A program made the translations under genes and the position numbers. The notes under the pieces were generated by a model. The model searched no databases. It worked only from the letters and a program-made list of their open reading frames with translations, and was not told the origin of the DNA. DNA of 64,000 nucleotides from Clostridia bacterium (GTDB lineage: Bacteria > Bacillota > Clostridia > Christensenellales > CAG-138), in NCBI GenBank assembly GCA_017448545.1, contig JAFSLH010000005.1, positions 163,296 to 227,295 of the forward strand, in the 5' to 3' direction. Shown in pieces: positions 53,004 through 64,000 of this stretch. Within the stretch, counting starts at the first letter, position 1; every line of letters begins with the position of its first letter.

Positions 53004-54798
53004 CGGAAAAACAAACGGAATACGCGACAGCGTTCTGGAGGAGATGAAAGGCCTTTACGACCTGACGCAGCCCAGCGGAGTCTTTCTGTCCGCCGAGCTT
53101 TGTGAATCGCTCGCCATGTTCACCGAACGCATCGGCCGCGAAATCTCCGTATACATTTCACGCAGCGGCGTGATCAAGGACGTATCGATCGGCGACGCCA
53201 CGACGGTCTCCATGCCGGATATGCGGATCGTGCGAAACATTGACCGACTGTGCGGCGTTCGCTGCATTCATACGCATCCGAACGGCAGCGGCTACCTCAG
53301 CGACGTAGACCTCGGTACGCTGAACTCCATGCGGCTCGATTCGATGGTCGCCGTCGGCGTTCGCGAAGGAAAGCCCACCAGCGTCTATGCTTCCTTTGTC
53401 GGCGAGATGGAGAACGAAGAACGCATTCCGCTCATCTACGGACCGATGCGACACGATCGTCTCCCGCAGCGCGCGCTTCTGGACGCGATTCTGGTGGCGG
53501 ACAATCGGCTCAAAGCCCCGACCTATGCGGTCACGCAAAGCGAACCGGAACGGGCGATCCTTGTCGGCATCGAAAACAACGACGGCTACGATACGCTTGA
53601 AGAATTGAAGCAACTGGCCGAAACGGCAGGCGTTAAAGTGGTCGCGATCGAACGGCAGCGCAGACGCCCTGTCGATAACGCCACCTATGTCGGCTCCGGC
53701 AAAGCCGACGAACTGCGTTTGCTCGGCAGCGCGACTGAAGCAGATCTCTACATCTTCGACGATGAACTGAGCGCCATTCAGATCCGGAACCTCGAAGACG
53801 TATTCGGCGCGCCGGTCATCGACCGCACCATGCTGATCCTCGACATCTTTGCCACGCGGGCGACCTCCCGCGAAGGCAAGCTGCAGGTCGAACTGGCGCA
53901 GCTCAAGTACCGTCTTCCCCGTCTGCTCGGCGCGGGCGTCGTGCTTTCGCGGCAGGGCGCGTCCGGCGTCGGCATGCGCGGCCCCGGCGAGAAAAAGCTC
54001 GAAATCGACCGCAGACGAATCCACCGCCGGATTTACGAACTGGAACAGGAGCTTGCGGAAGTGGAAAAGCAGCGCGGGCTTCGGCGCGGCGCACGCAAGA
54101 AGAACGCCGTTCCGATCGTTGCGCTTGTCGGCTATACGAACGCCGGAAAAAGCACGCTCCTAAATGCGCTTTCGGGCAGCGACGTGCTCGCGGAAGACAA
54201 GCTGTTTGCGACGCTCGACCCCGTGGTCCGCAGAATCACGCTGCCCGGAGGTTCCGAATGTCTGCTCAGCGATACGGTCGGTTTCATCAACAAGCTGCCG
54301 CACGATCTCGTTCAGGCGTTCCATTCCACGCTCGAAGAAGTGCGCGAAGCCGATCTGATTCTGCATGTGATCGATTCCGCCTGTCCGTATTATGACGTCC
54401 AGATGCGCGTGGTCGAACAGGTTTTGGCAAGTCTCGGCGCCGCCGATCTACCGCTGATCGAAGTCTATAACAAGATTGATCTTGCCGACGCTTCACCGCG
54501 CAAGCGCGAAAACGCCGTTTCGATCAGCGCAGTAAACGGAACCGGACTGGATGAACTGCGCCGCGCCGTCGAATCGGTATTGAATGCGCGGCAGGTTCGT
54601 GTCGAGGTCGTCGTGCCGTACGACAAATTCGACGCGATTCAGACGATCCGTTCCATCGGAACGATTCTTTCGGAAGCGTACGAAGAAGACGGCGCGCATA
54701 TCGCCGCCATGCTTGAATCGGACAAACTGTTTCAATTGCAAAAAGCCCTCGGCATCACCGTCGATAAGCCGAAGGCGGATTGGGAGGAATCGAAATGA
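52987..54798 (+). CDS. hflX: HflX GTPase with N-terminal JAMM/RadC-like domain
   Basis: 603 residues from the ATG at 52987 (CAGGAG upstream), much longer than the ~420 of E. coli HflX. Residues ~1-160 carry an extra domain with [14 protein letters not shown]: His95, His97, Ser105 and Asp108 fit the JAMM zinc pattern HxHPx(6-7)SxxD seen in MPN/RadC proteins. After that comes the normal HflX: subdomain I ([16 protein letters not shown]), the [11 protein letters not shown] glycine-rich segment, and the GTPase domain with [14 protein letters not shown] and NKID. HflX splits stalled ribosomes. Longer HflX forms occur in Clostridia, but the role of the extra domain is unknown. Confidence 0.93.
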
Positions 54799-55439
54799 TC
54801 GACAGCATCGGATTTGATCTGGACGGCACACTTTGGGATTTTGCCGCGAAATATGCCGTTTACTTCGGCGAGGCGGTCAAGGACATGCCCGGCGTTCATC
54901 AGCCGACAATCCCGGAAGTATACGCGGTCACGGGACTTCCGGCTATTGCTTATGTGGAAAACCTGTTCCCGGAGCTGAAAGACGCCGACACGTCGGTCAA
55001 GCTCTCCGTTTTCCGGCGTGCCGAAAAGAACGGCTGCGACGCTATCCTGCGCGAAGGCGGAACGCTGTACGAAGGGCTGGAAGAAATGCTGCAAACGCTC
55101 TCCGCCCGGTATTCGCTGTTTATCGCAAGCAACTGTGAGCCGACCTATCTCCGCAATTTCCTGACCTATTACGGATTTGCACATTACTTCACGGACGTGA
55201 TCTGCCAGGATCTTCGGATCGGCAAAACGACGAAGGGACAAAACATCCGCACGGTCATGCAGCGGAACGGGTTTCAGTCCACGATTTTTGTCGGCGACGC
55301 GCAAAGCGACGCGGACGCCGCCTCAGAAGCCGGCGTACCGTTCGTCTGGGCAAGCTACGGCTACGGAAACGTGCCGGACGCGAAATATGTCCTTCGGAAG
55401 CCGATGGACCTTGTACCCCTCACGGAACAACTATACTGA
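54795..55439 (+). CDS. HAD-family hydrolase
   Basis: 214 residues from the ATG at 54795 (GGGAGG upstream), overlapping the hflX stop. Motifs are [11 protein letters not shown] (nucleophile), IASNCEPTY, Lys in GKTTKGQN and [13 protein letters not shown]. Similar to phosphoglycolate phosphatase-like enzymes; substrate unknown. It ends at 55439, directly at the left end of the folded element 55440-55677. Confidence 0.88.
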
Positions 55440-55677
55440 GGCTGTCGCAAAAGGCGCCAGACCATTTGCGGCAAATTGGAATTGTTTTAACTTGTATGTG
55501 GAAAAGGCGGAAAAATCCGCCTTTTCTCTGATTATATGCCGCAAATTATCCGCGTTTTCGCCCGAGCGCGATAACTTTCGGCGCGCACCCTGTGGGTGAA
55601 AAAGCGCCGGAAGTTATTGACTGCTGTTTACAGCCTTCGGGACGAAAACGCGAATTCTGACTGCCTTATCGACAGCC
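55440..55677. mobile_element. 238-bp folded element with terminal inverted repeats (MITE-like)
   Basis: The ends are GGCTGTCG (55440-55447) and CGACAGCC (55670-55677), with partial agreement further in (left GGCTGTCGCAAAAGGC, right read inwards GGCTGTCGATAAGGC). Inside are two nested hairpin domains. The first is ATTTGCGGCA (55464-55473) with TGCCGCAAAT (55537-55546), enclosing a perfect 10-bp hairpin. The second is CGCGTTTTCG (55551-55560) with CGAAAACGCG (55643-55652), enclosing a 14-bp stem (55571-55584 with 55604-55617) capped by CACCC-TGT-GGGTG. No protein is encoded. It resembles a non-autonomous mobile element or a structured RNA. Its first 13 bases GCTGTCGCAAAAG recur next to the IS3 element at 63851. 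Confidence 0.65.
55502..55527 (+). terminator. Terminator-like hairpin within the folded element
   Basis: A perfect 10-bp stem AAAAGGCGGA (55502-55511) with TCCGCCTTTT (55516-55525), loop AAAA. It would end the recX-nnrD-hflX-HAD transcript 70 nt after the last stop. Confidence 0.75.
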
Positions 55678-55726
55678 CCTTACAACGCTTAAAGAGTTTT
55701 GAGACAACGCCTTCCTATATCGAAGT

Positions 55727-56452
55727 TCAGATGACGATTCCGCCGTCAACGGACAGCACCTGTCCCGTTACAAAGGACGCTTCCGCAAGATAGTTGACCG
55801 CGTCGGCGATGTCTTTCGGCGTTCCGAGCCGTTCCAGCGGCGTTTCCTCCCGGAACGCTTCGACCGACGCGGCGTCGATATGGGCATTCATTTTCGTGTC
55901 GATCCAGCCCGGCGCAATGCAGTTGACGCGCACGCCGCTCGGCGCAAGCTCCTTGGCAAGCGCTTTGGTAAACCCGATCAACGCCGCTTTCGCTGCGGAA
56001 TACAGCACTTCGCACGATGCGCCGACTCTGCCCCACATGGACGAAAGCACGATCACCGCGCCGCCTGTGCTGCGTAAGTCTTCCAGCAGCAACCGTGTCA
56101 GCCGCAGAACGGCATAAACGTCCGTCTCAAAAACATCCCGCATCATCCGATCGTCCGTATCGGAAAACAGCATCTGCTTCGGCGCGATTCCGGCCGCATG
56201 TACGACCAATACCGCTTTCCCGAGTCGTTGATGCATCGCCGTAAGCATCGATCGCGTCGCTTCGTCGTCCGTCAGATCACAGGCGTACGTCATGTACTGT
56301 GTTCCCGCCGGAAGCGAAGCGGCCAACCGTTCGACGGATTCCCAATCGGAACGGTACTGCAGGCACAGCGCATACCCTTTTTCGGCAAGCGACGCAGCGA
56401 TTGCGCTCCCGATTCCGCCGGACGCGCCGGTCACAAGCGCAACGCGGTTCAT
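55727..56452 (-). CDS. SDR-family oxidoreductase (FabG-like)
   Basis: 241 residues. NAD(P)-binding VTGASGGIGSAIA (about 6-18), NAG-type strand followed by the catalytic Ser in SSMWG, and Tyr/Lys in LYSAAKAAL (about 150), then IAPGWIDTKM. Sequence is closest to 3-oxoacyl-ACP reductase, but it is not in a fab cluster, so the substrate is open. It overlaps the flavin reductase gene (ATGA), suggesting a joint redox task. Confidence 0.9.
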   Translation of the reverse strand: MNRVALVTGASGGIGSAIAASLAEKGYALCLQYRSDWESVERLAASLPAGTQYMTYACDLTDDEATRSMLTAMHQRLGKAVLVVHAAGIAPKQMLFSDTDDRMMRDVFETDVYAVLRLTRLLLEDLRSTGGAVIVLSSMWGRVGASCEVLYSAAKAALIGFTKALAKELAPSGVRVNCIAPGWIDTKMNAHIDAASVEAFREETPLERLGTPKDIADAVNYLAEASFVTGQVLSVDGGIVI

Positions 56453-56937
56453 TCGTCTTCGCTCCACACGCCGAGGATTTCGCCGACATACGCCGTATGC
56501 GGATCGCCGTTCGCATAGTAACGATCCACAAGCGCAGCATCCTCAATCCCATGCTCGTCGAGTTCGCTGCGATGCAGAATCCGGCATTCAATGTGTCTTG
56601 CGCAGCCCTTAAACCCGTCCTGCGCGCCGAACCGTGCCGGAACGAGCGATTCGCCGAGTTCTTTCATTTTATCGAAGTCCCGGCCCGAACGTGTACCGCA
56701 AAAAGCAAGCGCAGCCTTCATCGTTCCTTCCGCCGGAACGCTGATCGTAAAGGTATCCGCGTCCTCTAAAAGCGAATGCGTATGGCGGCTGTGCCGCACG
56801 TACACGGTTGCCGTCGGTCTGCCCCAAAGGACGCCGAACTGTCCCCATCCGATCGTCATCGGATTCCCTTTCACCATCAAAAATGCGCCGCGCGGAAGCT
56901 GCCGCACGGTTTCCGGAAGCCATTCAAAGTTTTTCAT
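56449..56937 (-). CDS. Flavin reductase-like domain protein
   Basis: 162 residues of the FMN-binding split-barrel flavin reductase family: PRGAFLMVKGNPMTIGWGQFGVLW at the start, VYVRHSRHTHSLLEDADTFTI, and a final YVGEILGVW. It probably binds FMN and reduces or transfers it using NAD(P)H. First gene of a two-gene operon with the SDR. GAGGTG lies before the ATG. Confidence 0.87.
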   Translation of the reverse strand: MKNFEWLPETVRQLPRGAFLMVKGNPMTIGWGQFGVLWGRPTATVYVRHSRHTHSLLEDADTFTISVPAEGTMKAALAFCGTRSGRDFDKMKELGESLVPARFGAQDGFKGCARHIECRILHRSELDEHGIEDAALVDRYYANGDPHTAYVGEILGVWSEDE

Positions 56938-63840: not shown

Positions 63841-63878
63841 ATGAGAAGGAGCTGTCGCAAAAGTGAACTGCACCCCAT

Positions 63879-63908
63879 TTGTTAGACATGTGATATAATG
63901 TCTAACAA
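63879..63908. repeat. 11-bp inverted repeat in the IS leader
   Basis: TTGTTAGACAT (63879-63889), 8 nt, and the exact reverse complement (63898-63908). TATAAT lies within it, so the hairpin may limit transposase expression when reading from outside. Confidence 0.8.
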
Positions 63909-63923
63909 GTGGGGTGATTTAAT

Positions 63924-64000
63924 ATGCCAAAAGGAGTACCAAAGCCTGAATATACAGGCGAATTCAAACAAATGGTAGTAGAAACAATGCGGAAAGAGAA
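63924..64000 (+). CDS. IS3-family transposase OrfA, 3' end outside window
   Basis: The visible 25 codons begin MPKGVPKPEYTGEFKQ and continue with VVETMRKE, the start of the helix-turn-helix OrfA protein of IS3-family elements (the EFKQ..V block). GGGGTGATTT provides a ribosome site. Only the N-terminus is present, so integrity cannot be judged. Confidence 0.8.
   Translation, partial: MPKGVPKPEYTGEFKQMVVETMRKE

Follow-up and report, generated by a model that had tools for sequence, protein, structure and literature searches.

A folded, non-coding repeat of gut Clostridia as a probable miniature transposable element directed to intrinsic terminators

Directly behind a HAD hydrolase gene, a 64,000-nt stretch of a Clostridia bacterium assembly (GCA_017448545.1, contig JAFSLH010000005.1, positions 163,296 to 227,295; hereafter the window) carries a strongly folded segment of 238 nt (55440–55677). 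A preliminary description read it either as a passenger resembling a miniature inverted-repeat transposable element (MITE) that had also supplied a terminator, or as a structured RNA. Which of these is it, and why does it lie where a gene ends? Judged from its copies and their flanks, the element is a mobile repeat that, at some targets in relatives of this bacterium, has a terminator hairpin doubled on both of its sides. The evidence makes it very probable that it is a non-autonomous DNA transposon, a MITE of about 225–275 bp, directed to intrinsic terminator stem-loops of gut Clostridia.

Copies, target hairpins and replaced terminators

A single-copy hairpin was ruled out by the many copies in the own genome and in the genus. 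The own assembly (1.5 Mb, 60% complete) gave 66 BLAST matches, partial or full, and 39 covariance-model matches, and near-identical copies are dispersed through it. Many of its contigs terminate within element copies, so the true copy number is probably higher. Covariance-model matches occurred in 22 of the 23 genomes of the genus, the own genome included, at 1 to 67 each, figures that may hold one copy on both strands and are thus only approximate as copy numbers. Among 297 sampled genomes of the order, searched with stricter filters, 6 matched the model: three belong to the own genus and the other three to a single further genus of its family. BLAST outside the genus gave a single short match elsewhere. 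A 22-base motif of the element was found in 55 stretches of named records (52 Clostridia/Clostridiales, one Bacillota, one Christensenella sp. UBA3792 and one Rhodobacteraceae), and several of the record titles mention cattle, buffalo or reindeer. The record labelled Rhodobacteraceae (L175) has the 22-base pattern and no model match, and may be a chance occurrence or a mis-binned sequence. No match was found among viral contigs queried with one exact 22-base pattern, among plasmids queried with one copy of a relative, or among phages queried with the window copy. Tandem or partly tandem copies were seen at three loci (L074 in G001:C12, L061 and L062).

The flanks were compared in 105 distinct copies (19 from the own genome and 86 from relatives) that had been found by BLAST, model or pattern, had at least 60 nt of left and 110 nt of right flank and were freed of duplicates; this set favours high-scoring copies and is not a random sample. 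The preliminary description had proposed looking for target duplications, and these were found in relatives: direct repeats of 11 bp or more (up to 28 bp) flank 22 of the 105 copies, while none of 20 permutations with mismatched flanks yielded more than one such case among 105. In 17 of the 22, those with repeats of at least 18 bp, the duplicated sequence is a terminator hairpin, complete or almost so, which lies 0–5 nt left of the element and whose second copy starts 29–37 nt after the folded core. In the other five, the exact repeat covers only part of a hairpin because the two copies differ or the model match ended early. In relatives, 37 of the 86 copies have a hairpin within 50 nt on the left (control 5/84) and 29 have one within the 50 nt that follow the tail (control 7/80); the corresponding figures for the 19 own-genome copies are 2 and 1 (control 1/19 for each). 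In the own genome, T makes up 69% of the six bases after the tail, an uncontrolled figure from the 15 of 19 copies with a recognised tail end.

The copies are located at the 3' ends of genes. By a home-made, dicodon-scored gene caller, 42 of the 105 lie between convergent genes, 34 between genes that both run along the element, 20 between genes that both run against it and 2 between divergent genes, with 7 unresolved; in the own genome the corresponding figures are 10 convergent, 8 along, 0 against and 1 divergent. Positions at gene 3' ends, together with strong folding, are also what would be seen if the repeats were immobile terminators or repetitive extragenic palindromes evolved by the host. 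This explanation is very improbable, as it is contradicted by the unrelated host hairpins doubled around 22 of the 105 copies, by the near-identical dispersed copies and by orthologous sites that are free of the element. Less probable still is that the element is a piece of a terminator-directed retroelement, such as a group IIC intron. Group IIC introns insert behind terminators. A search of Rfam gave no group II intron, whether at gathering score across the window or at four loci with the limit relaxed to E <= 1. The element has terminal inverted repeats and hairpin duplications, and such introns are not known to have either.

Orthologous sites in other species, the empty sites that the preliminary description had asked for, hold terminators where the own genome holds the element. 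The C-terminus of rplS (ribosomal protein L19, by Pfam) is covered in 22 genomes, and the element stands only behind the own-genome gene, 16 nt past the stop codon. In the other 21, a hairpin with a T-run follows closely after the stop codon; 17 of these were recognised by an automatic rule and four imperfect hairpins (L229, L234, L236 and L241) by eye, and at one locus (L231) the automatic rule chose a second hairpin, the first being visible by eye. The own rplS copy is followed by TTTTGCG, and TTTTTGCG stands right after the hairpin in 4 of the 21 (L232, L233, L238 and L242), a short likeness that could be a chance match. An IS1182-like end (AAAAAAGGGGCTGTTAAGAAAGG; IS, insertion sequence) was seen beginning directly after the rplS terminator of another genome (L227, G002), as if a related element uses a similar site. 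The HAD gene of the window has matches at E <= 1e-20 in three other genomes; none of them carries the element, and all three have an intrinsic terminator whose stem starts about 3–11 nt past the stop codon. This second comparison concerns the left flank, as the dehydrogenase gene on the other side of the element is not beside HAD in those three genomes. At both genes the element thus occupies the position where a terminator is expected, and in the window it appears to have taken the place of the HAD gene terminator between two convergent genes.

Architecture of the unit and its internal hairpin

The mobile unit is larger than the 238 bp first noted. Other copies place its limits about 2 bp to the left and 32 bp to the right of that stretch, and the whole unit (55438–55711, forward strand, as are all parts of it given below) measures 274 bp, with a folded core of 242 nt and a 3' tail of 32 nt. 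Its right limit is set by most other own-genome copies, which remain similar for 32 bases past the core, and the target duplications in relatives start right after a tail of similar length. For the 238 nt originally noted (55440–55677), the folding energy is -116.8 kcal/mol (z = -10.4), which none of 200 shuffled sequences equalled. Both ends named in the preliminary description, GGCTGTCG (55440–55447) and CGACAGCC (55670–55677), are present, but CGACAGCC closes the folded core rather than the mobile unit. The nested hairpin domains are present, namely the CGCGTTTTCG/CGAAAACGCG stem and the apical GATAACTTTCGGCGC stem with its CACCC/GGGTG cap, and the left arm holds a hairpin of 11 pairs. The stop codon TGA of the HAD gene occupies 55437–55439, so that the start first noted, 55440, is the next base.

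An outer stem closes on two arms and is followed by the tail. The 5' half of the outer stem (55438–55461) includes the left terminal repeat, which reads GGGGCTGTCGCAAAAG in most own-genome copies and CAGRCTGTCGYAAAAGG in many relatives; its columns 1–24 pair with columns 235–259 of alignment A1, and its 3' half (55656–55679) rests on the same pairing and on covariation. Fold and covariation likewise define arm 1 (55464–55546), in which ATTTGCGGC (55464–55472) pairs with GCCGCAAAT (55538–55546), and arm 2 (55551–55652), in which CGCGTTTTCG (55551–55560) pairs with CGAAAACGCG (55643–55652). The 3' tail (55680–55711), delimited by copy similarity, ends in the right repeat TTTTGAGACAACGCC. In many relatives the unit reads CAG...CTG and the tail forms a hairpin ending in ...TTTTGACACGCTG; the terminal inverted repeats there, CAGRCTGTCGYAAAAGG on the left and CAGCGTGTCAAAAGG on the right (read inward), are imperfect, and more so in the own genome. 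The element is short, has a core G+C of about 0.42–0.56 and received no coding call in 102 of the 105 copies. In the window, it is overlapped by a single listed open reading frame of at least 80 aa; this one, 103 aa long, lies across the end of the HAD gene in a different frame.

Arm 1 contains a hairpin made of an A-tract, a GC stem and a T-tract (55501–55526) that is terminator-like on both strands. A simple terminator rule accepts it in 101 of the 105 copies, which comprise 51 distinct arm sequences, compared with 9 of 105 shuffled segments that form a stem of at least six. The element thus probably restores termination at the site it enters; it appears to bring its own stop signal. Together with the dispersed copies, the target duplications in relatives and the empty sites that bear terminators, this hairpin agrees with the earlier proposal of a MITE-like passenger that supplied a terminator, the termination itself being predicted from the hairpin.

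The apex of arm 2 in the window is an optional module of 66 nt (55564–55629). Most copies of the own genome have an apex of about 15 nt; other copies lack the module or bear a different one, and elsewhere the apex is likewise an exchangeable palindromic module. The window module matches that of a copy in another species (L057) at 61 of 66 positions, and the remainder of the two elements at 134 of 182, which suggests that modules are exchanged between lineages. A further palindromic insert (TTACAGnGGTGCCGTCGC ... GCGCGTCGCCATC) is present in the arm 2 apex of L072, L073, L081, L089, L093 and others, and in L072 also in the outer stem; it is possibly another small mobile palindrome nested in the element.

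The unit is flanked by the HAD hydrolase gene on the left (54780–55439, forward strand; Pfam HAD_2, with orthologues in three genomes) and, on the right, by a convergent short-chain dehydrogenase gene (55727–56467, reverse strand; Pfam adh_short_C2). As noted earlier, GCTGTCGCAAAAG occurs again at 63851, and it proved to be the 5' end of another copy. An alternative, in which 63851 marks the terminus of an IS that has this repeat in common, was rejected: a different IS adjoins the same base of other copies, and 63848–63863 (forward strand) is accordingly read as the left end of a further copy, which an IS-like sequence (63864–64000) interrupts at the contig end. That sequence is presumably the start of an IS3-type element, which it resembles; its fragment of 25 residues was assigned to no Pfam family. 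Copies at four places (window 63848–64000, L101, L102 and L029) are broken at the same base, after GCTGTCGCAAAAG, by two kinds of IS-like sequence, presumably of IS3 type. For one of the two kinds, junctions located on different contigs point to a duplication of 3 bp, AAG.

Covariation in the stems

Contrary to the outcome that would have spoken against the element, the stems do covary. Across 42 aligned sequences, 96.2% of pair cells are standard, and both-sided changes occur at 13 of 33 pairs, in all five helices. Double-change cells numbered 99, as against 34.5 after shuffling and no more than 13 when partners were slid; a measure of further pair types was equalled by 12 of 500 shuffles.

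Such compensatory changes are what would be expected of a functional structured RNA (a 3' untranslated region element or a small RNA) that is only incidentally mobile, with selection acting on the transcript to preserve its stems. Unpaired stretches that are conserved, AAAAGG.G.CAGACC for example, fit this explanation, as does the own genome, where 18 of 19 copies have a left neighbour pointing toward the element. Selection on a transcript should further make G-U commoner than A-C at the pairs, and the raw pair cells lean this way (142 G-U and 78 A-C), although a single pair gives 41 of the 142. When gains were counted by parsimony on a tree of 100 elements of 170–262 nt, however, G-U was gained 79 times and A-C 61 times (p = 0.15), which does not support strand-specific selection on an RNA. 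In relatives, moreover, copies between same-direction genes are oriented with those genes in 26 cases and against them in 20, and Rfam gave no family at gathering score in the window and, at four loci, one weak microRNA match outside the core. A functional RNA is an unlikely explanation.

Alternatively, an ordinary MITE could have acquired the paired changes neutrally, if template switching during replication overwrites one arm of an imperfect palindrome with the sequence of its partner. In line with this, the arms are long and palindromic, the outermost pair shows flips (C-G to G-C, for instance), the strand asymmetry is not significant, and the further-pair-types measure was matched by some shuffles. 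Less easily accommodated are the core length, kept at about 187–197 nt across species in most cores without the apical module, and the A/GC/T order of the inner hairpin, kept in 101 of the 105 copies. We regard template switching as possible, although somewhat doubtful. A bolder reading is that the transposon reads DNA shape, moving from hairpin to hairpin and swapping or copying terminators, and that its multi-arm fold, as a cruciform or single strand, is kept as the substrate of the transposase; this we advance tentatively.

Partner transposase, known systems and significance

Elements with a comparable target preference are known. According to the sections consulted of PMC5678879 and PMC4923244, IS1272 and TnSha1 (IS1182 family, staphylococci) target stem-loops that share no sequence consensus and that in several cases are terminators situated after genes, and the stem-loop is lost; PMC5678879 draws three pathways by the position of joining, one of which doubles the entire stem-loop. 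The present element shares with them stem-loop targets and stem-loop loss, the latter at own-genome sites as judged by orthologue comparison. It differs in being non-coding, whereas IS1272 and TnSha1 carry a transposase and have no target duplication reported in those sections; in doubling hairpins in relatives while replacing them in the own genome; and in forming a covarying multi-arm structure with a terminator-like hairpin. As the loss of stem-loops and the duplication of whole hairpins would both occur here, as in the IS1272 pathways, an IS1182-type transposase is the likeliest driver, and descent from an IS1182-type element is, by analogy, likely.

In the mechanism that we propose, an IS1182-family transposase acting in trans would join the ends of the element to the foot of an extruded target hairpin. 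Joining at one foot would double the hairpin and joining at the other would remove it, while the A-tract/GC-stem/T-tract hairpin of the element would restore termination in both directions. The insertion would then be harmless, and copies could accumulate at gene 3' ends. An IS1182-family partner would be expected to end in GGGGCTGTCGCAAAA or CAGRCTGTCG.

Several observations weigh against this interpretation. The strong covariation is unusual for a MITE and is not explained by transposition alone. No hairpin duplication flanks 83 of the 105 copies, including all 19 of the own genome; the parts of PMC5678879 and PMC4923244 seen report IS1272 without target duplications; and the empty sites come only from other species. 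A generic terminator scanner gave no call on the arm 1 hairpin, probably because its T-run belongs to the stem. No intact transposase with matching ends was found in the 23 genomes of the genus or in 151 of the order. The IS1182 model NF033551 had 0 matches in the own, incomplete (60%) genome and matched in 6 of 23 of the genus, two of them above the cut-off. Those two, intact IS1182 copies, begin with GGGGCTGTTAAAAA and GGGGCTATGAAAAA, and a decayed IS1182-type remnant in one genome (L111) is the only one with TTTTGCGACAGCCCC downstream, inside a possibly ordinary terminator hairpin. PF05598 matched in 3 of the 23 genomes, NF033551 at E <= 1e-40 in 7 of the 151, and among ten transposase loci inspected none has the ends of the element.

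With bacterial MITEs, as portrayed in the portion of PMC10969869 consulted, the element shares its short length, lack of coding capacity, terminal inverted repeats, many copies, folded transcripts and intergenic position; its core G+C and its stem-loop target set it apart from them. It also resembles the SPRITE, RUP and BOX repeats of Streptococcus pneumoniae in being a small, interspersed, folded repeat, and SPRITE also looks like a Rho-independent terminator and is found close to the 3' ends of genes (PMC3049150, in part). Unlike the present element, SPRITE has only AAAA/TTTT ends, no established target duplication and, in the same excerpts, no described hairpin-targeted insertion. No description of this repeat family was found among the papers listed by searches of the open-licence literature of PubMed Central; from its sequence, the element behaves like the MITE of a stem-loop-directed IS.

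The family is of interest in that a single repeat shows both outcomes expected of structure-directed transposition, duplication of a whole stem-loop and its replacement, while the sections of the IS1272 papers at hand observe only stem-loop loss and present the duplication as a drawn pathway. A selfish element that lands on terminators while carrying one of its own may have found a route to a harmless high copy number, and its copies offer many natural test sites for terminator turnover. If the transposon does read DNA shape, tens of terminators per genome would be supplied by one selfish element.
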